In this document: in pieces, positions 41,345 to 54,618 of the stretch | Layout of the letters: every line of letters starts with the position of its first letter | How positions within the stretch are numbered: position 1 is the first letter of the stretch | DNA from: Rhodovarius crocodyli | GTDB taxonomy: Bacteria; Pseudomonadota; Alphaproteobacteria; Acetobacterales; Acetobacteraceae | Length of the DNA stretch: 64,000 nucleotides | Assembly (NCBI GenBank): GCA_945901085.1 | Contig: CAMDJV010000002.1 | Span: 1 to 64,000, forward strand | Reading direction: 5' to 3' | Program-made: the position numbers and the translations under genes | Notes under the pieces: model-generated | The model's database searches: none | What the model saw: only the letters and a program-made list of their open reading frames with translations | What the model was told of the DNA's origin: nothing

Positions 41345-41502
41345 GGGCGATCTCCGTGCCCGCCTCGCATCGCGCAAAGCGCGGCGCCGGGCAAGGGATG
41401 TTTCTTGGGCCATGATTGTGGCGGTTTTCGTACCCAGCTATGGCCTTGAAACCCGCCCGCCACTGCGCCACTTTGATCACCGTAACGGGAGCGGGAAACG
41501 CC

Positions 41503-42474
41503 ATGGCCGCAAATCGGGCCAGTCTTGGACGGCGCGCGGCCTTTGGCATGGCCTGGGCGGGTGCTGCGGCGGCGCAGGCCTGGGCGCCCTCGCGCCCCTT
41601 GCGGATGATTGTCCCCTTCCCCCCCGGCGGCAGCACCGACACGCTGGCGCGGATGACGGCCGAAAGGCTGGGCGCGGCGCTGGGCCAGCCGGTGGTGATC
41701 GATAACCGCCCCGGTGCTGCGGGCAGTATCGCCGCCGATATCGCCGGCAAGACCGAACCCGATGGGCAGACCATCTTCTTCGCCAGCATCGGCACGGCGG
41801 CGACCAACCAGTTTCTCTACCCCTCCATCCCCCATAATGGCGAAGCCCTGGCCGAGGTGGCGGGGCTCTTCTCGCTGCCCAATATGGCCACCGTGGCGCC
41901 CTCGGCGCCTTGGCGCAGCCTTGGCGATTTCATCGCCGCCGCCCGGGCGCGGCCCGGCGCCCTGACCTTTGGCAGCAGCGGCGCGGGCAGCAGCCTCCAT
42001 CTCACCGGCGCCTTGGTGGCGGCCCGGGCTGGCATCGACATACTGCACGTGCCCTATCGCGGCGCGGGGCAAATGCTCAATGAATTGGTCGCCGGGCGCA
42101 TCTCCATCGCCTTTGGCAATATTTCCACCGCAATCGGCCTGGTGCGCGATGGCGCGCTGCGGCCATTGGCCACCACCGGGGCGCAGCGCAACCCGGCCTT
42201 GCCCAATGTGCCGAGCTTTGCGGAAACCCTGCCGGGCTTCGTCGCCACCGTCTGGTACGGGCTGCAGGTGCCGCGCGGCACGCCAGAAGCGGTGATCTCC
42301 CGCCTCAACCAGGAAGCCAATGCGATGCTGGCTGATGCGGCGGTGCTCGCCCGGCTGACCCATATCGGCGTCGCCCCCATGGGCGGCAGCGCCCAGGATT
42401 TCTCGCGCTTCATCGCCGCCGAGATCACCCAATGGAGAGAGGTGATCCGCACCGCCGGCATCACCGCAGAATAA
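41503..42474 (+). CDS. TctC/Bug-family periplasmic binding protein (1)
   Basis: The 323-residue tripartite tricarboxylate transporter (TTT) receptor has an N-terminal signal (about residues 1-26, with R-R before the hydrophobic stretch, possibly Tat). The mature protein shows the Bug signatures RMIVPFPPGGSTDTLARM, QPVVIDNRPGAAGSIAADI, FGSSGAGSSLHLTGAL and HVPYRGAGQMLNELVAGRISIAF. It delivers a carboxylate or related ligand to a TctAB membrane pair not present here. ATG 41503 follows GGGAGCGGG; the ORF extends 29 codons upstream without support. A second tctC starts ten bases after its stop. Confidence 0.9.
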   Translation: MAANRASLGRRAAFGMAWAGAAAAQAWAPSRPLRMIVPFPPGGSTDTLARMTAERLGAALGQPVVIDNRPGAAGSIAADIAGKTEPDGQTIFFASIGTAATNQFLYPSIPHNGEALAEVAGLFSLPNMATVAPSAPWRSLGDFIAAARARPGALTFGSSGAGSSLHLTGALVAARAGIDILHVPYRGAGQMLNELVAGRISIAFGNISTAIGLVRDGALRPLATTGAQRNPALPNVPSFAETLPGFVATVWYGLQVPRGTPEAVISRLNQEANAMLADAAVLARLTHIGVAPMGGSAQDFSRFIAAEITQWREVIRTAGITAE

Positions 42475-42484
42475 GGAAAACGCC

Positions 42485-43480
42485 ATGACCACGCCCCGCC
42501 GCGCCCTGCTCGCAAGCCCCGCCCTTCTCGCCTTCGGCCATGGGCCAGCACGGGCGCAATGGGCGCCATCGCGCTCCATCCGTCTGGTGGTGGGCTTCAC
42601 CCCCGCCGGCACCACCGACATCGCCGCCCGCATCCTGGCCGAGCGGCTGACCCAGCGCCTGGGGCAATCGGTGTTGGTGGAAAACCGCCCCGGTGCCGGT
42701 GGCAATCTCGGCGCCGAAGTGGTGTCCAAGGCCGAGCCCGACGGCCATACCCTGCTGATGACGACGGTGAGCTCCGGCGCCATCAATTTCCCGCTCTATG
42801 GCCGCCGGATGCCGATCCGCCCTGAGGATCTGGCCGCGGTGGGGCTGCTGCTGCGGGTGCCCAATGCGATTTTCGTCGCCAATGCGGTGCCGGCCAATAG
42901 CCTGGCCGAGCTGGTGGCACTGCTGCGCGCGCGCCCCGGCCAGCTCAATATCGGCTCGAGCGGCATCGGCACCTCGCTGCACATGACGGGTGAGTTGCTG
43001 AAGCTGGCCACCGGCGTGCAAGTCACCCATGTGCCCTTCCGCGGCTCTGGGCCGATGTTGCAGGAGATGATCGCCGGGCGCATCGAACTGGGCGTGGATA
43101 ATCTGCCCAGCGTGATTGGGCATCTGCGCGAAGGCAGGCTGCGGCCGCTGGCGGTGACCACCGCCACCCGCAGCCCCGCCCTGCCCGGTGTTCCCACCAC
43201 CGCCGAGGCCGGCTTCCCCGCCATCGAGGCCACCGCCTGGTTCGGCCTGCAGGCCCCCGCCCGCACCCCGGCACCCATCATCCAGCGCCTGGGTGCAGAA
43301 GTGAACGCCGCCGTGGCCGACCCGGCAACCTGGGCGAAGCTGGCCGATCTGGGCGGCATGAAGCCCGATCTTCAGCCCGATGGCGGCACCAACCCAGACG
43401 CTTTCGAAACCTTCATCCGGGCGGAAATCGCCAAATGGACCGAGGTGGTGCAGCGCTCCGGGGCTTCGGTCGAGGGCTGA
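42485..43480 (+). CDS. TctC/Bug-family periplasmic binding protein (2)
   Basis: This 331-residue Bug protein has a signal peptide ending near PARA-QW. Mature motifs are RLVVGFTPAGTTDIAARILAERL, VENRPGAGGNLGAEVVSKAEPDG, IGSSGIGTSLHMTGELLKLATG and VPFRGSGPMLQEMIAGRIELGVDN. It is ten bases downstream of the previous tctC and probably cotranscribed, so the two receptors may feed a distant TctAB or act in sensing. It differs enough from its neighbour that the pair is not a recent duplication. A putative intrinsic terminator follows at 43574. Confidence 0.9.
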   Translation: MTTPRRALLASPALLAFGHGPARAQWAPSRSIRLVVGFTPAGTTDIAARILAERLTQRLGQSVLVENRPGAGGNLGAEVVSKAEPDGHTLLMTTVSSGAINFPLYGRRMPIRPEDLAAVGLLLRVPNAIFVANAVPANSLAELVALLRARPGQLNIGSSGIGTSLHMTGELLKLATGVQVTHVPFRGSGPMLQEMIAGRIELGVDNLPSVIGHLREGRLRPLAVTTATRSPALPGVPTTAEAGFPAIEATAWFGLQAPARTPAPIIQRLGAEVNAAVADPATWAKLADLGGMKPDLQPDGGTNPDAFETFIRAEIAKWTEVVQRSGASVEG

Positions 43481-45583: not shown

Positions 45584-46969
45584 ATGAATCAACCGCCGCA
45601 CCGCATCTGCATCCTGGGGGCGGGTATTGGCGGCTTGGCCGCGGCCATGCTGCTGGCGGCCGCAGGGCGGGAGGTCATGATCCTGGAGCGGGCCGAGACG
45701 CTCGGCGGCAAGGCCCGCGCCATGCCCCCCGCCCATGGCATCACCATGCTGCCGGTGTTCGAAGCACTTTTCGGCGCCGCTGCCATGCCGCCACTCACCC
45801 GGCAGCGCCTGCTGGCGCGGCATCTCTGGTCCGATGGCGCCACGCTCGACATCGTCGATGGCATACAGGCCAATGCCGATGCCATTGGCCGCTTCGCCGG
45901 CCCCGCCGCGTCGCAGGGTTATCGTGATTTCGCCGCCCGCGGCCAGCGCTATTTCGAAGCGCTGCAAAAGCCCTTCATCGAGACGCATCGGCCGGCTGCC
46001 ACGGCGCTTTCCACCAATGCCACCATGATGCGCCGCCTGGGGCTGGCCGCGCTGGCGCCCCTTTGGGAGGGTTTGGCCGAGCATTTCGCCGCCCCCCGGC
46101 TGCGCCAGGTCTTCGCCCGAGCGGCCTGCTGCGTCGGCGCCTCGCCCCTGCAGGCCCCGGCCACGCTGATGATGATCTCCCATATAGAACAGCAGGGCGT
46201 GTGGCAGGTGGAAGGCGGGGTGATGGCATTGGTGGAGGCCATGGCAGCGCATGCCATGGCACAGGGCGCCACCATTCGCCTGGGCACCGAGGCGGTGGAT
46301 ATCCGGCTGCGGGGCGGGCGCGTGGCCGGCGTCGCTTTGGCGAATGGCGAAATCCTGCCCGCCGATGCGGTGATCGCCAATGCCGATGCCGCCGCCATTG
46401 GCGCTGGGCTGCTGGGGCGTGAGGCAGCAAAGGCGGTGCCGGCCCTGCCGGCCAATAAGCGCTCCTTCTCGGCCATCATCTGGCGGCTCAAGCCACGCGA
46501 TATGCCGGCGCAAAGCATTTTCCTGCCCGATGAACCCACCGCCGAATTTACCGAACTGCATTACCGCAATAGGCTGGCCACCCAGCCCAGCCTGCAAATC
46601 TCCGGCGGCAGCACCGCCATGGTGATGGCGCCCGCCCGCACCGATACCCGCCCGCTACCGCCAGAAGCGCTCACCGCCTGCGCGGCTGCCGCGCGCGCGC
46701 TGGCTGCCGCCGCTGGTCACAATTTCGAATTCGAGGACGACGTGCCCCAAACACCCGATGATTTCACCCGCCAGTATCCCGGCACTGGCGGCGCGCTATA
46801 TGGCCAGGCGGCGCATGGCTGGTCAGCCAGCTTTGCCCGCCCGGTGGCGCGCACCTCGCTGCCCGGCTTTTACCTCTGCGGCGGTGGTACACATCCCGGC
46901 GCGGGGGTGGCGATGGCAGCCATATCCGGCCGCCTGGCCGCCGAGCGGGTGATGGAGAACCGGCCATGA
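45584..46969 (+). CDS. crtD: CrtD-like carotenoid 3,4-desaturase with FAD-domain deletion (crtD1)
   Basis: This 461-residue CrtI-superfamily flavoprotein is closest to CrtD, the hydroxyneurosporene/methoxyneurosporene desaturase. The dinucleotide fold G12-A-G-I-G-G17 and the C-terminal FYLCGGGTHPGAGVAMAAISGRLA block are present. However, the segment after GGKARAMPPAHG lacks the conserved (D)GGPTV strand found in its homologue at 53134, a clean in-frame loss of about six residues. It may therefore have altered activity. ATG 45584 has no ribosome site but lies just after a PpsR-type promoter. Its stop overlaps the crtC start (ATGA), and crtC-crtD pairing is typical of spirilloxanthin clusters. 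Confidence 0.8.
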   Translation: MNQPPHRICILGAGIGGLAAAMLLAAAGREVMILERAETLGGKARAMPPAHGITMLPVFEALFGAAAMPPLTRQRLLARHLWSDGATLDIVDGIQANADAIGRFAGPAASQGYRDFAARGQRYFEALQKPFIETHRPAATALSTNATMMRRLGLAALAPLWEGLAEHFAAPRLRQVFARAACCVGASPLQAPATLMMISHIEQQGVWQVEGGVMALVEAMAAHAMAQGATIRLGTEAVDIRLRGGRVAGVALANGEILPADAVIANADAAAIGAGLLGREAAKAVPALPANKRSFSAIIWRLKPRDMPAQSIFLPDEPTAEFTELHYRNRLATQPSLQISGGSTAMVMAPARTDTRPLPPEALTACAAAARALAAAAGHNFEFEDDVPQTPDDFTRQYPGTGGALYGQAAHGWSASFARPVARTSLPGFYLCGGGTHPGAGVAMAAISGRLAAERVMENRP

Positions 46970-47898
46970 TGCGCGGTTGGGAGTTCAACCAGCCCGTGCC
47001 CGAGCGCGGCTATTGCTGGTGGTATGTCGATGCGCTCTCCGATGATGGCAAGCACGGCATCACCATCATCGCCTTCATCGGCACCGTCTTCTCGCCCTGG
47101 TATGCCTGGGCTCGGCGCGGCGGCGGGGGGGACCCTTCCAACCATTGCTGCATCAATGTCTCGCTCTATGGCCGCCCCAGCCGCTGGGCGATGACCGACC
47201 GGCAAAGCTGGACCATGCGCCGCGATGAAAACAGCTTCACCGTGGGCCCGAGCGGGCTGGTCTGGGACGGCAATAGCCTGACCATTTCGATCAATGAGGT
47301 GACAGCACCCTTCCCCAGCCGCCTGCGCGGCACGTTGCGGCTCACGCCCCAGGCACTCTCCACCCGTGCCTTCCAGCTCGATGCCAAGGGCCGGCACAAA
47401 TGGCACCCCATCGCGCCCCGCTCGCGCGTTGAGGTGGAGTTCCAACAACCCGGCCTGCGCTGGTCCGGCCCCTCCTATTTCGACACCAATGCCGGTGCTG
47501 CGCCGCTGGAGGAGGATTTCTGCGACTGGGATTGGTGCCGCGCGCCCATGCCCGATGCCACGGCCATCCTCTACAACACCCAGCGGCGGGACGGCACCTC
47601 ACAGGCCCTGGCCCTGCGCGTCGGCCATGATGGCTCGGTTGAGGATTTTCCCTCGCCGCCGGTGGTGCAATTGCCCAAGACCCTATGGCGCATCGCCCGG
47701 CCCACACGATCGGAAAACGGCCAAGCCTCGGTGGTCAAAACCCTGGAGGACGCGCCCTTCTACTCCCGCTCGGTCATCAACACCCATTTGCTGGGCCGGG
47801 ATGTGACGGCGGTGCATGAAAGCCTGGAACTGGACCGCTTCGCCAATCTCGCCGTGCAGGCCCTGCTGCCGGTGAAGGTGCCGAGGCCCTTCTGGTAG
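46966..47898 (+). CDS. crtC: carotenoid 1,2-hydratase CrtC
   Basis: The 310-residue acyclic carotenoid hydratase adds water across the terminal C1-C2 double bond of neurosporene or lycopene, an early step toward spheroidene or spirilloxanthin. Family blocks are GYCWWYVDALSDDGKHGITIIAFIGTVFSPWYAWAR, NHCCINVSLYGRPSRWAMTDR, GRHKWHPIAPRSRVEVEF, DWDWCRAPM and LEDAPFYSRSVINTHLLG...HESLELDRF. It overlaps crtD1 by four bases, and its 3' end is overlapped by the yqaA-like frame. No signal peptide is seen. This gene makes the acyclic (non-zeaxanthin) nature of the cluster certain. Confidence 0.96.
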   Translation: MMRGWEFNQPVPERGYCWWYVDALSDDGKHGITIIAFIGTVFSPWYAWARRGGGGDPSNHCCINVSLYGRPSRWAMTDRQSWTMRRDENSFTVGPSGLVWDGNSLTISINEVTAPFPSRLRGTLRLTPQALSTRAFQLDAKGRHKWHPIAPRSRVEVEFQQPGLRWSGPSYFDTNAGAAPLEEDFCDWDWCRAPMPDATAILYNTQRRDGTSQALALRVGHDGSVEDFPSPPVVQLPKTLWRIARPTRSENGQASVVKTLEDAPFYSRSVINTHLLGRDVTAVHESLELDRFANLAVQALLPVKVPRPFW

Positions 47899-48356: not shown

Positions 48357-49868
48357 ATGCTCGATAGCACCCACGACCCGCGGCCCCATGCCGTTGTCAT
48401 CGGCTCCGGCTTCGGTGGCCTGGCCGCCGCGGTGCGGCTTTCCGCCCGGGGCTGGCGGGTCAGTGTCGTCGAGAAGCTCGATGCCGCGGGCGGGCGGGCC
48501 TATGTCTATCGGCAGGATGGTTTCACCTTCGATGGCGGCCCCACCATCATCACCGCGCCCTATCTGCTCGAAGAGCTATGGGCGATGTGCGGCAAAACCA
48601 TGAGCGATGACATCACGCTCAAGCGCATGGACCCCTTCTACGAAATCCGCTTCGATGACGGCACGGTGTTCCGCGCCTTTGACGATGTCCAGCGCATGAA
48701 GGCCGAGGTGGCGCGCATCAATCCCAGCCAGGTCGAGGGTTTTGAGCGCTGCATCGCCGATAGCGAAAAAATCTACGAGGTCGCCTTCGCCAAGCTGGCC
48801 GATCAGCCCTTCCATAGTTTTTGGTCCATGCTGAAGGAAGCGCCCGATATGCTGCGCCTGGGCGGCATGCGCAGCGTCTTCAGCAAGGTGAGCGACTATT
48901 TCACCGATGAAAAACTGCGGGTGGCCTTCAGCTTCCACCCCCTGCTGATCGGCGGCAATCCGCTGACCACCACCGCCTATTACTGCCTGATCCAGCATCT
49001 GGAGCGGCTGCATGGGGTGCATTACGCAATGGGCGGCACGGGCGCGATCGCCGCCGGCCTGGTGCGCCTGGCCGAGGGCAATGGCGCCCAGTTCCGCTAC
49101 AATGCCGAAGTGGCCGAGATCACGGTCAAGAATGGCCGGGCGAGCGGCGTGCGGCTGGCCAATGGCGAGACCATCGCCGCCGATATTGTCGTCAGCAATG
49201 CCGATCCGGCCTGGACCTATTCCCGCCTGCTGAAGACCCAGAAGCGCAAGCGCTGGACCGATGGCAAACTCTCCCGCGCGAAATATTCGATGAGCCTCTT
49301 CGTCTGGTATTTCGGCACCAATCGGCGCTTCGAGGATGTCTATCACCACGCCATGGTGCTGGGGCCGCGTTATGAGGGGCTGCTGCGCGACATCTTCTCC
49401 GGCAAGCCGCTGGTCAATGATATGAGCCTGTATCTGCACCGCCCCTCGGCCAGCGATCCCTCAGTCGCCCCCCCAGGTTGTGATGCCTTCTATGTGCTCT
49501 CGCCGGTGCCGAACCTGACCAGCGGCACGGATTGGGCGGCCGAGGCGGAAGCCTATCGCGCCCGGGTGCAGAAGCGCCTGGAAGAGACCATCATGCCAGG
49601 GCTGGGCGAGACAATCATCACCTCACGCGTACTCACCCCGCAGGATTTCCGCGACCGGCTGCTCTCCTATCAGGGCGCCGCCTTCGCCATGCAGCCGCAA
49701 TTGTTCCAAAGCGCCTGGTTCCGCCCGCACAATAAGAGCGAGGAGGTCGAGGGGCTGTTCCTGGTCGGCGCCGGCACCCATCCGGGGGCCGGGGTGCCCG
49801 GGGTGATTTCCTCGGCCAAGATCCTCGATGAGTTGGTGCCGGCGGGGGCCGAATTCATCAGGCGGTGA
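48357..49868 (+). CDS. crtI: phytoene desaturase CrtI
   Basis: The 503-residue flavoprotein introduces three or four double bonds into phytoene to give neurosporene or lycopene. It has the FAD motif G16-S-G-F-G-G21, GFTFDGGPTIITAPYLLEELW (the GPT strand absent from crtD1), VSNADPAWTYSRLL and the C-terminal LFLVGAGTHPGAGVPGVISSAKI. ATG 48357 follows AGGAGAG at good spacing. It belongs to the crtD1-crtC-yqaA-like run. The partner gene crtB, normally adjacent, is not here, so phytoene synthesis is encoded elsewhere. Confidence 0.95.
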   Translation: MLDSTHDPRPHAVVIGSGFGGLAAAVRLSARGWRVSVVEKLDAAGGRAYVYRQDGFTFDGGPTIITAPYLLEELWAMCGKTMSDDITLKRMDPFYEIRFDDGTVFRAFDDVQRMKAEVARINPSQVEGFERCIADSEKIYEVAFAKLADQPFHSFWSMLKEAPDMLRLGGMRSVFSKVSDYFTDEKLRVAFSFHPLLIGGNPLTTTAYYCLIQHLERLHGVHYAMGGTGAIAAGLVRLAEGNGAQFRYNAEVAEITVKNGRASGVRLANGETIAADIVVSNADPAWTYSRLLKTQKRKRWTDGKLSRAKYSMSLFVWYFGTNRRFEDVYHHAMVLGPRYEGLLRDIFSGKPLVNDMSLYLHRPSASDPSVAPPGCDAFYVLSPVPNLTSGTDWAAEAEAYRARVQKRLEETIMPGLGETIITSRVLTPQDFRDRLLSYQGAAFAMQPQLFQSAWFRPHNKSEEVEGLFLVGAGTHPGAGVPGVISSAKILDELVPAGAEFIRR

Positions 49869-49882
49869 TCGCCGCCTGAACC

Positions 49883-50977
49883 TCACTCATACCAGCCCAC
49901 ATCCAGCGTCGCGACCTCGCCAAAGGTCGTCCCCCGCCGGCCAGCCTCGCGGATGATCGGCCAACTCGTGCCGGTCATGCTCAGAAACGGCCAAGGGTCC
50001 CGCCGGTCCCAACTGACATCGCGGGTCGTGGCCAGCCGCCGCGCCCGGCCGAAGAAGCCGGCGCGAAACGGCGCCAGATCGGTCAGCGCCGAATAGAATT
50101 GCTGCAGCACCCGCTCCGGCCGAAAGCGCGGCGGGCGGCCTTCCAGCAGCGCGGGCGCGATATCGGCGGTCTCGAAAAAATGCAGGCCTGAGGTGGTGCG
50201 CGGGTTGCACTCAATGCCCCAGGGCCGGTCATCCGCATCGAGGATGAAATCGAATGACAAAAAACCTGTCCAGCCCGTACCCGCAGCAAAGCGGGCAATC
50301 CAGGCCTCAGTCGCGGCATGGGCGATGCGCTCAAAGGCAATGGCCACCGAACCCGAAAATTGCGCGCCCTGATACAGCACATTGCCCACCACCTGCCCCT
50401 GCCGCGCAATCGCACAGGAGCTGACGATGCGGCCATGAATGCGCCGCTGCAGAATGGTTTCCTCCTCCGCCTCAGGCGGTGCCTGCCCGGCGGCGAAAAA
50501 GCGCACGCCACGGCCCGAGCATGAATGCACCGGCTTGGTGATAAAATCGCCCGAAGCCGCGAGCGCCGCGGCCTCGGGCGAGCCCAAGGCCGCGCTGGGC
50601 GGCACATCCAGCCCCAGCCCCTCTGCCAAAGTGATAAAGCCGCGCTTGTGATAGGCGCGCAGCACCGCCTCGGGCGGCATGGTCATCAGCCGTGCCGGGC
50701 TGCGCAAATGCGCCACATGCATCGTCTCCTCAGAGACGGGGACGACAAGCTCCACCCCCTCCGCCGCGATAACGCCCGCGAGATCTTGCAAATAACCCGC
50801 CTTGCTCACCGCCGGCGCCCTTACCTTATGGCTGGCGGCCACCGCGCGGGAGGCCCCGGCCAGGGTCCAGCCAAAGGGTTCGGCCACCACCACGCGCCAA
50901 TCATGGGCGGCGAAGCTGCGCGCGATATCCAGCGCCTTGGGCAACCGGCCCAGGGTGAGCAGCACCGTGCGCGTCAT
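49883..50977 (-). CDS. ATP-grasp ligase, carbamoyl-phosphate synthase-like
   Basis: This 364-residue ATP-grasp enzyme probably activates a carboxylate as acyl phosphate and joins it to an amine or thiol. It has an N-terminal Rossmann-like domain (TVLLTLGRLPKALDIARSFAAHDWRVVVAE), a central ATP-grasp core (KPVHSCSGRGVRFF near 145-160, then ILQRRIHGRIVSS), and the metal-binding block GFLSFDFILDADDRPWGIECNPRTTSGLHFFE near 250-285. The start ATG 50977 overlaps the P450 stop as ATGA, so the two are coupled. Family resemblance is to PylC/CarB-like ligases of unknown substrate. Its place between crtI and crtD2 suggests a carotenoid or membrane-related substrate, which is inference. Confidence 0.82.
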   Translation of the reverse strand: MTRTVLLTLGRLPKALDIARSFAAHDWRVVVAEPFGWTLAGASRAVAASHKVRAPAVSKAGYLQDLAGVIAAEGVELVVPVSEETMHVAHLRSPARLMTMPPEAVLRAYHKRGFITLAEGLGLDVPPSAALGSPEAAALAASGDFITKPVHSCSGRGVRFFAAGQAPPEAEEETILQRRIHGRIVSSCAIARQGQVVGNVLYQGAQFSGSVAIAFERIAHAATEAWIARFAAGTGWTGFLSFDFILDADDRPWGIECNPRTTSGLHFFETADIAPALLEGRPPRFRPERVLQQFYSALTDLAPFRAGFFGRARRLATTRDVSWDRRDPWPFLSMTGTSWPIIREAGRRGTTFGEVATLDVGWYE

Positions 50978-52338
50978 GCCCGGGGGGTGACGCGGCACAT
51001 CACCTGTTGGGTGGGGCGGGTGGTGAGCCGGGCGGCAGGGCGCACCCGGCCCGGCTCCAGCACGTGAAAATCAAAGCGGCGGAACAGCCGGGCAATCAGC
51101 AGCACCGCCTCGGTGGTGGCAAAGGCAGCACCGGCACAAACCCGCGGCCCCAGGCCAAAGGGGATATAGGTGCCCGGCGTCATTTCCGCCTCCCGCTCGG
51201 GGGTAAAACGGTCCGGGTCGAAGACATGCGGGTTGGTCCAGAAGGCCTGATGGCGATGCAGCACCCAGGGCGCCACCATGATCATGGCGCCGCGCTTGAC
51301 CTTATGGGTGCCAATGGTCGTCGCCTCCAGCGCCACCCGCGGCAGAAAGGTGATGGGCGGGTAGAGCCGCAAGGTCTCGCGAAAAATGTTGCGGATGAAG
51401 ACCAGGCTGCGGATATGCTCAAAGCCGATCTCGCCGGGCCCCACCACCGCATCGATCTCAGCACGCAGCCGCGCCACCATCGCTGGCTGCGTCGCCAGAA
51501 TGAAAAATACCCAAGTGAGCACCGAGGCAGAGGTCTCATGCCCGGCCAGGAACAGCACACCCAACTGGTCAATCAACTCCTCACGCGTAAAAGCCACCCC
51601 ATCGGTGCCACGGGCGGCGACCACGGCGGCGGTGATATCGTCAAACTTGGCCCCGGCCTCCAAATGGCTGTCCAGCAGCGCGCCAAGATGGCCGCGGATC
51701 AGCCCGCAGGCATCCAGCACGCTTTGCTTTTGCGGCGCGCTTTTCCAGGCCGGATCAAAAATCAGCCGGCTGATTTCCACCTGCGCCACGCTGCGCTCGA
51801 ATTCGGAAAACGCGTCGAACACATCATGCGCCGCCTGGGTTTCGAGGCTGGTGGAGAAGACGGTGCGGCAAATGATATCGGCGGTAAGGTGGCTCATCGC
51901 CAAATCAAGCGAGAAGGGCGTGCCCGCACCAGCGCCCAGCGTGGCCTCGGCCTGCTCCACGCCCGCCACCATATCGGGGAAGGCGCGGCTCACCCGCATC
52001 ATGGTCAATGACGGGTCGATCATCGCCCGCTGCCGCGCCCAGGTCGCGCCGGAACTGACGAAAATACTATCGCCGATCAAGGGCTCAAGCGCTTCGACCA
52101 TCAGGTCCGATTTGGGGAAAATCCCCTCCGGATCAGCCAGCACCCGCCGCACCTGCGCCGGTTCATTGACGATCAAAATCGACCGGCGGGACCAGCCGAG
52201 CCAGCCGATCTTCTGCCGAAAGGCAGCAGCCGGCAGCAGGCTCAACAAATCCCCATCACCCTGCAGGGCGAGGCGGATCAGCGAGATGACAGCCGCATAG
52301 GAGGTGGGCCGGGGCGGGGCATAAAGGGCTGCGCTCAT
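50974..52338 (-). CDS. cytochrome P450
   Basis: The 454-residue bacterial P450 shows the I-helix AGHETS (265-270), the ExxR pair E321-T-L-R324, HRHQAFWTNPHVFDPDRF and the heme loop FGLGPRVCAG with ligand C401. It has no membrane anchor. It heads the minus-strand pair with the ATP-grasp gene. Its ATG 52338 lacks a ribosome site and lies 32 bases after TTGACA of an imperfect PpsR-type palindrome, mirroring crtD1. The sequence resembles the CYP102/CYP4-like clan more than CrtS or CYP97-type proteins, but I cannot place it exactly. Terminal hydroxylation or carboxylation of a carotenoid end group is a plausible role. Confidence 0.88.
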   Translation of the reverse strand: MSAALYAPPRPTSYAAVISLIRLALQGDGDLLSLLPAAAFRQKIGWLGWSRRSILIVNEPAQVRRVLADPEGIFPKSDLMVEALEPLIGDSIFVSSGATWARQRAMIDPSLTMMRVSRAFPDMVAGVEQAEATLGAGAGTPFSLDLAMSHLTADIICRTVFSTSLETQAAHDVFDAFSEFERSVAQVEISRLIFDPAWKSAPQKQSVLDACGLIRGHLGALLDSHLEAGAKFDDITAAVVAARGTDGVAFTREELIDQLGVLFLAGHETSASVLTWVFFILATQPAMVARLRAEIDAVVGPGEIGFEHIRSLVFIRNIFRETLRLYPPITFLPRVALEATTIGTHKVKRGAMIMVAPWVLHRHQAFWTNPHVFDPDRFTPEREAEMTPGTYIPFGLGPRVCAGAAFATTEAVLLIARLFRRFDFHVLEPGRVRPAARLTTRPTQQVMCRVTPRA

Positions 52339-52369
52339 GATTGCGATTGCGAAACTTTACAGTGACAAC

Positions 52370-52387
52370 TGTCAAGTGGCATTGTCA
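52370..52387. promoter_or_regulatory. imperfect PpsR-type palindrome between P450 and membrane-protein genes
   Basis: The site reads TGTCAAGTGGCATTGTCA, matching TGT-N12-ACA except for the first A of the right half. The minus strand of its left half is TTGACA (52375-52370), a perfect -35 box for the P450 gene with 31 bases to its ATG, the same spacing as at crtD1 (29 bases). An overlapping shorter palindrome TGACA-AC-TGTCA occupies 52363-52374. The 73-base gap serves both divergent units, so one regulator could control the P450/ATP-grasp and membrane-protein/crtD2 genes together. Confidence 0.5.
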
Positions 52388-52411
52388 GCACCGGAGGACA
52401 AGAGAGGCCCC

Positions 52412-53137
52412 ATGCTGCTGATGTTTCATGCCCTGGTGGCAATCCATATCGTGGCGGGAACGACCGGCGCCATCACCTTCTGGGTGCCCGTGCTGGGCCG
52501 CAAAGGCGGCGTGGACCATCGCAAATGGGGCAAAATTTTCACCCTGGCCATGCTCATCACCGGCAGCCTCGCGATTTGCATGAGCATCATGACGCTGATC
52601 GACCCCATGGGGACCCACCCGCATATGCCCGCAGGCTATGATGAGGTCTTCGTGCGGGCCATTTTCGGCTGGTTGATGCTGCATATGGGCATTCTGACGG
52701 TCAATCTGGCCTGGTATGGCTGGCTCTGCGTGCTGAATCGGCGCGACCATCTGGCCAATCGCACGCCGCTCAATATGGGCCTGCAAGCCGCGGTGCTCAT
52801 CGCCGCGCTGAACTGCGCCCTGCAAGGCTGGCTGGCGGGAGAATATCTGATGATCGGCCTCGCCGTGGTGGGCATCGCCACCGGCGTGACCAATCTGGTC
52901 TTCCTGCTCAACCCCAAGCCTGCCCCACTGGTATGGCAAAAGGAGCATCTCAAGGCGCTCGTCGGTGCCGGAATCAGCGTCTATACGGCGTTCTTCGCCT
53001 TTGGCTCGGTGCGCATCCTGCCAGAACTGGCGCTCAACCCGGTGATGTGGGCCATCCCGCTCACCACCGGCGTGCTGATGATCCTCTACCACTGGCGGCA
53101 GATCGGCATGATGCGCCGGCGCGTGGTGACGCCCTGA
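52412..53137 (+). CDS. polytopic membrane protein (DUF2306-like) before crtD2
   Basis: This 241-residue protein has about seven hydrophobic segments, with an N-terminal HALVAIHIVAGTTGAITFWVPVLGRKGGVDHRKWGKIFTLAMLITG block resembling DUF2306-type proteins (conserved HIxxG, KGGxxHRxxG). No catalytic function is known for them. ATG 52412 follows GAGAGG; the 25-codon extension upstream would run through the operator and is rejected. Its TGA is overlapped by the CTG start of crtD2 (CTGA), so the two are coupled. It may scaffold or accompany carotenoid enzymes in the membrane, which is inference. Confidence 0.7.
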   Translation: MLLMFHALVAIHIVAGTTGAITFWVPVLGRKGGVDHRKWGKIFTLAMLITGSLAICMSIMTLIDPMGTHPHMPAGYDEVFVRAIFGWLMLHMGILTVNLAWYGWLCVLNRRDHLANRTPLNMGLQAAVLIAALNCALQGWLAGEYLMIGLAVVGIATGVTNLVFLLNPKPAPLVWQKEHLKALVGAGISVYTAFFAFGSVRILPELALNPVMWAIPLTTGVLMILYHWRQIGMMRRRVVTP

Positions 53138-54618
53138 AAATTCTGGTTGTGGGCGCCGGCGTGGCCGGCCTGACCGCGGCGGCGGACCTCGCGCGGCGCG
53201 GTGCCGACGTCACCATCCTGGAGCGCGCCGCCAGCCATGGCGGCAAGATGCGCCATGTCATGGTCGATGGCCGGGGCATTGATGGCGGACCCACCGTCTT
53301 CACCATGCGCTGGATTTTCGAAGGCCTCTTTGCCGATGCCGGCGAGAGCCTGAGCGATCATCTGGGCGTCTATTCCACCGATGTGCTGGCCCGCCATGCC
53401 TGGCGCGCCGGCGGCAGGCTTGATCTCTTCGCCGATATCGAGGCCTCGGTCGAGGCGATCGGCGATTTTGCCGGTGCTGCCGATGCCCGTGGCTATCGCG
53501 ATTTCTGCACCCGCGCAGCCGCCATCTACCGCACGCTGGAGGGCAGCTTCATCGGTGCGGAAAAACCCTCGCAGCTCGATCTCGTGCGCCGGGTGGGGCT
53601 CTCCCGCCTTGGCGAATTATGGCGCACGGCCCCCTTTCGCAGCATGTGGTCAGCGCTGGGCGATCATTTCAGTGACCCGAGACTGCGGCAATTATTCGGC
53701 CGCTACGCCACCTATGTGGGCGCCTCCCCCTGGTTCGCACCGGCCACGCTGATGCTGGTGGCCCATGTCGAGCAGGATGGGGTCTGGCTGGTGCAGGGCG
53801 GCATGCGGGCGGTGGCCGATGCCCTGCGCGGCCTCGCCGAACGGCAGGGCGCCAGATTGCGCTGCGGTGCCGATGTCACCCGCATCATCATCGAGGGTGG
53901 CCGCGCCAAAGGCGTGGAACTGGCCAATGGCGAGCGCCTCATGGCCGATGCGGTGCTGTTCAATGGCGATGCCGCAGCCCTTCCCAGCCTCGGCGCCCCA
54001 GGACCAAAACCAGCCCAGCGCAGCCTCTCCGCCATCACCTGGTGCGTCAACGCGCCCACATCCGGCTTTGATCTGGCGCATCACAATGTCTTCTTCGCCG
54101 AGGATTATGCCGAGGAATTTCGCGCCATTTTCAACCGGCGCGAGGTGACGGCCGCCCCCACCATCTATATCTGCGCCCAGGATCGTGGGCTGCAGCCGCC
54201 CCCACCGGGCACCCCCGAACGCCTGCTGCTGCTCATCAACGCCCCCGCCGATGGCGATAGCCGAGACTTCAACGCCAGCGACTACATCGAGCGCACCCAT
54301 TCCCTACTGGCATCCTGTGGCCTGCATATCGGCGAAGGCAGCGCGGTGGCGACCACCCCCTCCGGCTTCAATGCGCTGTTTCCCACAACCGGCGGCGCGC
54401 TCTATGGCATGGCCAGCCATGGCGCGACCGCGACATTGCGCCGCTCCGGCGCGCGGGGGAAAATTCCCGGCCTCTATCTGGCCGGCGGCTCGGTGCATCC
54501 GGGACCGGGCGTGCCCATGGCCGCCATGTCAGGCCGCCTCGCCGCCGCCCGCCTGCTCGAAGATGCCGCCGGGCGGAGCACATCGGTGGGTTTTGCCCCA
54601 GGACGCCACAGCCGCTGA
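53134..54618 (+). CDS. crtD: CrtD carotenoid desaturase (crtD2), apparent CTG start
   Basis: This 494-residue flavoprotein is the better match to classical CrtD (1-hydroxyneurosporene/methoxyneurosporene desaturase): fold motif G7-A-G-V-A-G12, GGKMRHVMVDGRGIDGGPTVFTMRWIFEGLFADAG, LARHAW, YATYVGASPWFAPATLMLVAHVEQDGVWLVQGGM and GLYLAGGSVHPGPGVPMAAMSGRLAAARLLED. The N-terminal beta strand ILVVGAG needs a start before 53140. The only candidate is CTG 53134, overlapping the preceding TGA as CTGA; GTG 53149 would remove most of the strand. Together with CrtC it would build the conjugated, hydroxylated end groups. It lies apart from crtC. Confidence 0.88.
   Translation: MKILVVGAGVAGLTAAADLARRGADVTILERAASHGGKMRHVMVDGRGIDGGPTVFTMRWIFEGLFADAGESLSDHLGVYSTDVLARHAWRAGGRLDLFADIEASVEAIGDFAGAADARGYRDFCTRAAAIYRTLEGSFIGAEKPSQLDLVRRVGLSRLGELWRTAPFRSMWSALGDHFSDPRLRQLFGRYATYVGASPWFAPATLMLVAHVEQDGVWLVQGGMRAVADALRGLAERQGARLRCGADVTRIIIEGGRAKGVELANGERLMADAVLFNGDAAALPSLGAPGPKPAQRSLSAITWCVNAPTSGFDLAHHNVFFAEDYAEEFRAIFNRREVTAAPTIYICAQDRGLQPPPPGTPERLLLLINAPADGDSRDFNASDYIERTHSLLASCGLHIGEGSAVATTPSGFNALFPTTGGALYGMASHGATATLRRSGARGKIPGLYLAGGSVHPGPGVPMAAMSGRLAAARLLEDAAGRSTSVGFAPGRHSR

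Follow-up and report, generated by a model that had tools for sequence, protein, structure and literature searches.

In the carotenoid gene cluster of Rhodovarius crocodyli, crtD1 (D1) encodes a CrtD-type protein from which a conserved strand of the flavin site has been deleted, and a second, canonical CrtD with the strand intact (crtD2, D2) is encoded in the same cluster. By descent and fold D1 lies within CrtD, yet it falls below the curated CrtD score and lacks the GPT strand, hence the most fitting label is that of a paralogue derived from CrtD whose flavin-site strand is gone. As to function, there seems to be an even chance that D2 took over 3,4-desaturation and that D1 is now a non-canonical, probably non-desaturating paralogue coupled to crtC, either FAD-binding or apo, which may assist CrtC. 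The window, that is, the whole stretch of DNA analysed, comprises the first 64,000 nucleotides of contig CAMDJV010000002.1, and the features discussed below are collected in Table 1.

Table 1. Features of the carotenoid cluster around crtD1, in window coordinates.
Feature	Position	Strand	Basis
crtD1 (D1), CrtD paralogue with flavin-site strand deleted	45584..46969	+	ORF; NF045637 412 bits, cut-off 580; alignment
Deletion junction, codons Gly52 and Ile53	45737..45742	+	canonical CrtD has [IV]D[AG]GPTVF here; identical in 7/7 genus orthologues
Further shortened substrate-binding sheet stretches of D1	46490..46625 (approximate)	+	alignment with D2
ATGA overlap, crtD1 stop/crtC start	46966..46969	+	4- or 1-base overlap in 21/21 testable D1 loci
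crtC, carotenoid 1,2-hydratase	46966..47898	+	NF045922 308 bits, under the curated cut-off of 400
crtI, phytoene desaturase	48357..49868	+	TIGR02734 610 bits, cut-off 238
ATP-grasp protein	49883..50998	-	PF02655; conserved in cluster
Cytochrome P450	50974..52338	-	PF00067, 221 bits
Predicted membrane protein, DUF2306-like	52337..53137	+	PF10067 20.6 bits, below Pfam cut-off 31.6
crtD2 (D2), canonical CrtD, intact IDGGPTVF	53134..54618	+	NF045637 631 bits, cut-off 580; alignment

The D1 reading frame runs from an ATG at 45584 to a TGA at 46967-46969, encodes 461 aa, and is open throughout. Alignment with D2 confirms the loss of the conserved GGPTV strand described in the first-pass annotation, and also its retention in the two neighbours named there, D2 having an intact IDGGPTVF and CrtI keeping D[AG]GPT. 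The loss is in frame, as had been stated, but its size, given as about six residues, is eight residues or 24 bases: the stretch that reads [IV]D[AG]GPTVF in ordinary CrtD, IDGGPTVF in its entirety, is gone. The cut falls between Gly52 and Ile53 (bases 45739/45740), where D1 passes from GGKARAMPPAHG directly to ITMLPVFEALF, the D2 counterpart being GGKMRHVMVDGRGIDGGPTVFTMRWIFEGLF. The rest of the gene had been described as intact, which holds for the reading frame but not for the residues, since D1 is also shorter than D2 by about 4 aa before its residue 307 and by about 14 aa near its residue 343, and conserved CrtD residues are replaced.

The identical gap is present in all seven D1 orthologues of the genus, which come from separate assemblies and of which the six others are 55-69% identical to the D1 of the window; faulty sequencing or assembly, or a mutation confined to the strain, is thereby ruled out and retains practically no probability. 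A strand that is generally variable in CrtD is ruled out as well, since GPT is kept by each of the family's 45 canonical CrtD proteins and by 76 of the best 80 named public-genome loci, the four exceptions being members of the D1 clade. Among close CrtD homologues, therefore, the strand is lacking in D1 orthologues only, which dates the deletion and does not explain it away.

In a tree of 68 CrtD proteins together with CrtI, the 22 D1 proteins form one clade (support 100/99), sister (100/96) to the canonical CrtD that related genera have as a single copy; D2 forms a separate clade (100/100). The D1 grouping is kept at 99 after removal of the strand columns. A recent duplication within the genus is ruled out, as D1 and D2 are separate clades common to several genera. 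The strand is deleted only in this genus (7 copies); sister genera keep it with GPT mostly altered, so that 11 copies have GPA, GPG, GPP or GAS, three copies of g69 have GPTQ, and the region is absent in one, a copy whose N-terminus is missing at a contig edge and which is left out of the strand counts and included in the tree and in the counts over 22 rows. These three states require only two changes on the tree, and the deletion in the genus occurred once.

The fold of D1 is that of the family. Its AF2 model has a pLDDT of 92.3, and its best PDB match is 4rep (TM 0.86, Z 41.6, rmsd 2.2 over 442), which the D2 model also matches (TM 0.85). The D2 model has a beta-hairpin formed by E41-44 and E47-50, and neither a counterpart nor a replacement of it is found in the D1 AF2 model; the structural argument is based on secondary structure and on the published CRTI pocket (PMC3382138). 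The score against NF045637 (cut-off 580) is 412 for D1 and 631 for D2, the four other copies of the genus tested score 353-455, and outside the genus one of five D1 proteins tested exceeds the cut-off (G182, 587). D1 also falls below the cut-off of the phytoene desaturase model TIGR02734 (172 bits, cut-off 238) and exceeds the gathering score of the flavin-containing amine oxidoreductase family PF01593 (77 bits over residues 15-457, gathering score 19.8). Thus, D1 shares with CrtD (NF045637, solved relative 4rep) the fold, the tree position, the place 5' of crtC, and the motifs GG[KR] and HPGxG, whereas it differs in the deleted strand, the replaced pocket residues, P461->A, the two shortened stretches, and the score. 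CrtI (4dgk; 48357-49868 in the window), which served to map the pocket, shares with D1 the superfamily and the FAD domain but has its D[AG]GPT strand intact and the pocket histidines in place. The CRTI report (PMC3382138) also provides, in CRTISO and other carotenoid enzymes that use reduced flavin without net redox change, a precedent for proteins that resemble CrtI without being desaturases; D1 is nevertheless excluded from the CRTISO family by its 51 bits to TIGR02730, for which the cut-off is 587. No description of a CrtD copy of this kind turned up in literature searches of open-licence papers.

The missing segment belongs to the flavin site. According to the report on the Pantoea CRTI crystal structure (PMC3382138), residues 53-55 lie where the isoalloxazine must sit, G53-P54-T55-V56 are located at the isoalloxazine and the pocket, the active pocket comprises P54, T55, V56, H323, Y351, and H353, and G53 is one of six residues invariant in the six flavoprotein structures compared there. 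By alignment to these published residues, the D2 equivalents are G52, P53, T54, V55, H317, Y345, and C347. T54, H317, Y345, and C347 are each conserved in all 45 canonical CrtD proteins and V55 in 44; among the 22 D1 proteins, one of which lacks the T54 and V55 positions because its contig ends, T54 is kept in three, V55 in four, and H317, Y345, and C347 in none. This low retention shows the pocket to be remodelled across the D1 clade as a whole, even where the strand persists. Moreover, some replacements are fixed in D1, namely L298->F in 21 of 22 (Y in one), P461->A in 21 of 22 (S in one), and Y325->P or A in all 22, and this favours new constraints over loss alone. Pocket replacements in D1 differ between genera. 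P461->A is weakened as a mark unique to D1, since the canonical-type copy L160 also has Ala there with GPT intact. The catalytic residues proposed for CRTI, R148/D149/R152, are not matched consistently in CrtD, not even in its canonical form, in alignments inspected by eye, and no argument is based on them. The FAD motifs GG[KR] and HPGxG are retained in 21/21 D1 proteins, and GxGxxG in the seven of the genus; the clade-wide GxGxxG count of 15/21 is lowered by automatic starts that are too short and is not used.

D1 is under purifying selection, constrained but less so than D2. Synonymous-biased evolution, which the first-pass annotation had proposed to look for, is found: pairwise dN/dS of D1 in the genus ranges from 0.11 to 0.53, is below 1 in 21/21 pairs, and is above that of D2 in 19 of them. 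Over 15 pairs, from which the copy cut at a contig end in G003 is excluded, the median dN/dS is 0.39 for D1 and 0.22 for D2, with a higher dN for D1 in all 15; the g119 pairs exclude G333. Overall, the rate of evolution of D1 is about 1.7 times that of D2, with D1/D2 dN ratios of 1.87 in the FAD domain, 1.78 in the substrate domain, and 1.25 in the helical domain, the borders being transferred from the domain description in the CRTI paper (PMC3382138). Columns still conserved in at least 20 of 21 D1 proteins amount to 76 of the 159 conserved in canonical CrtD and to 19 of the 283 others. Every D1 copy seen has an open reading frame. In a neutral simulation with d = 0.35, the probability of no stop was 0/2000 with equal base change and 0.03 with GC-biased change, and the latter value makes the lack of stops in a single lineage weak evidence, so the case for constraint is carried by dN/dS and the seven copies together.

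In whole-genome searches, D1 is found in seven of the nine genomes of the genus, each of which also has a canonical D2. The two others, G005 and G006, lack D2, the reaction-centre genes, and a crtF-type methyltransferase match as well, and they retain squalene/phytoene-synthase matches; both appear non-phototrophic, consistent with loss of phototrophy. In the family, a D1-like match at E <= 1e-60 is found in 118 of 397 genomes, and two CrtD copies occur in 22 of these 118 (seven in this genus, one in g53, 11 in g119, and three in g69), with D2 present in every one of the 22 D1 genomes. A partial D1-like copy with the motif GGATQF also lies at a contig edge in G400 (C360, bases 1-864), with a canonical D2 on another contig; it is counted neither among the 22 nor among the losses.

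In 21 loci the D1-type copy immediately precedes crtC on its 5' side, and the 22nd (G003) stops at a contig edge. The coupling of crtD1 to crtC proposed in the first-pass annotation is conserved in all 21 testable loci, where the D1 stop and the crtC start overlap by four bases or one. Canonical crtD-crtC pairs of the sister group carry the same overlap, so the coupling is inherited and gives no evidence for a new role. In the single-CrtD genera looked at, the canonical copy is mostly 5' of crtC. Where its surroundings are visible on the contig, D2 follows the DUF2306-like gene and lies opposite the P450/ATP-grasp pair, and in four single-CrtD genomes (G238, G273, G298, and G121) the P450, ATP-grasp, and DUF2306 genes are already there without D2. 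At one locus (L202, in G420), D2 and crtI are present and no crtC lies next to the ATP-grasp gene, where it is normally located.

The start of D2 in the window is probably a CTG at 53134-53137, overlapping the upstream TGA as CTGA, and no ATG, GTG, or TTG is found at the conserved start position. The P450, ATP-grasp, and DUF2306-like genes (49883-53137) accompany the carotenoid cluster in many family genomes. Identity to the corresponding proteins of G004 is 93% for the P450, 89% for crtI, 88% for crtC, 80% for D2, and 67% for D1; the P450 is the most conserved of the set, and a carotenoid-modifying role is therefore suggested for it. Two adjacent, similar ORFs at 41416-43480 (352 and 331 aa) presumably resemble periplasmic tripartite-tricarboxylate-type binding proteins, and relatives of the second occur near crtD1 in several genomes of the genus.

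D2 without D1 is found by whole-genome profile search in nine g126 genomes and in G375 of g69. These are phototrophic by their reaction-centre genes (14 of 14 searched were positive), and D1 is therefore dispensable for phototrophy where D2 is present. At eight loci, the 3 kb on the 5' side of crtC give no D1 remnant at E < 0.03, whichever D1 query is used. The remaining weaker hits of D1 queries in g126 and G375 are, to judge from position and tandem arrangement, CrtI or CrtI-like. Three further genomes (G178, G115, and G111) give no D1 hit and have the crtC neighbourhood off the contig, and they are not counted as losses. The D1-less genomes are placed at three spots among D1 holders on the D2 tree (SH-aLRT only, some forks weak), which suggests that D1 was lost at least two and probably three times if the D2 tree follows the cluster.

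Regarding the role of D1, we rank a non-desaturating partner of CrtC first in likelihood, a new flavin reaction second, and slow decay third. As a CrtC partner, crtD1 would be the old crtC-linked crtD of the lineage; comparison between genomes shows that a second, canonical CrtD became established in the same cluster, and that the D1 clade lost isoalloxazine-ring and substrate-pocket residues in graded steps. In this genus the GPT strand was deleted as a whole, in a single event, and the gene kept its overlap with crtC and the protein its FAD-binding fold. D2 would now perform 1-hydroxycarotenoid 3,4-desaturation, and canonical hydride-transfer desaturation would no longer be done by D1. With less certainty, D1 may persist as a pseudo-desaturase, a protein at the membrane periphery that binds FAD or is apo, does not desaturate, and acts as a partner of CrtC. 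It could help CrtC to work next to D2 or hand on 1-hydroxy intermediates. We infer from the constant company of both copies that D2 arrived and D1 then eroded; the partner role is drawn with less certainty from gene order, coupling, and the retained fold. GDI and REP proteins have the same flavoprotein fold without enzymatic function and would set a precedent, in that the fold outlasts its flavin chemistry. The narrower proposal, that D1 is a pseudo-desaturase without flavin chemistry that was selected as a CrtC partner after the second CrtD took over, is held tentatively and at somewhat less than an even chance; such a protein would place the hydratase at the membrane or pass 1-hydroxy intermediates to D2, and D1, with its lost pocket residues and purifying selection, may be a pseudoenzyme whose fold is kept and whose catalysis is gone. 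Against the preferred reading, D1 is also faster than D2 in the FAD domain (dN ratio 1.87), which weakens a strict FAD-binding constraint, the D1 of G182 passes the CrtD cut-off (587 against 580), three g69 copies keep GPT, and the overlap with crtC is shared with canonical sister pairs.

The replacements fixed across the clade (L298->F and P461->A in 21/22, Y325->P/A in 22/22) could instead indicate that D1 binds FAD and was neofunctionalised to catalyse another carotenoid reaction in a rebuilt pocket, such as a non-redox isomerisation with reduced flavin, for which the CRTI report (PMC3382138) offers a parallel in that CRTI itself can be a cis-trans isomerase with reduced FAD, or the desaturation of a different substrate. 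This is a rather unlikely outcome, however, given that the equivalent of G53 is gone with the entire strand in this genus, that the substrate sheet is shortened, that pocket replacements vary among genera, and that the gene was lost in several lineages. Slow decay, in which D1 became redundant after the arrival of D2 and its frame stays open mainly since crtC translation needs it, would agree with the roughly 1.7-fold faster evolution, with the absence of D1 from nine g126 genomes and G375 and of any remnant 5' of crtC in eight loci, and with the stop/start overlap in 21/21 loci. Nevertheless, dN/dS (0.11-0.53) is never near 1, at least 20 of 21 D1 proteins still agree in 76 of the 159 columns conserved in canonical CrtD, and coupling alone does not constrain amino acids, so decay is improbable; it keeps some weight because D1 evolves faster than D2 and was lost outright elsewhere. 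The first-pass annotation had preferred a shifted or lost activity to random decay, and this preference seems to be borne out by the genus-fixed gap, the open reading frames, the dN/dS range, the coupling to crtC in 21/21 loci, and the intermediate motif states in related genera. Finally, retention of the fold and the ADP-binding motifs, and of the strand in sister-genus D1, might be taken to mean that D1 is still a working 3,4-desaturase whose flavin site is rebuilt by neighbouring segments, active at one end of the carotenoid molecule, or else in different conditions. This seems very improbable, as the equivalents of T54, V55, H317, Y345, and C347, all conserved in canonical CrtD, were lost simultaneously, the predicted D1 structure offers no replacement hairpin, and D1 is dispensable in phototrophs holding D2 alone.

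The D1 clade is a natural series, from an intact motif through an altered motif and a deleted strand to a lost gene, within one family and at one crtC-coupled locus, and it displays the fate of a flavin desaturase once a second copy exists. D1 and D2 allow a direct test of whether a CrtD-type protein has a job besides desaturation, namely assisting CrtC, and labelling both copies as 3,4-desaturases would mislead pathway reconstruction in these phototrophs.
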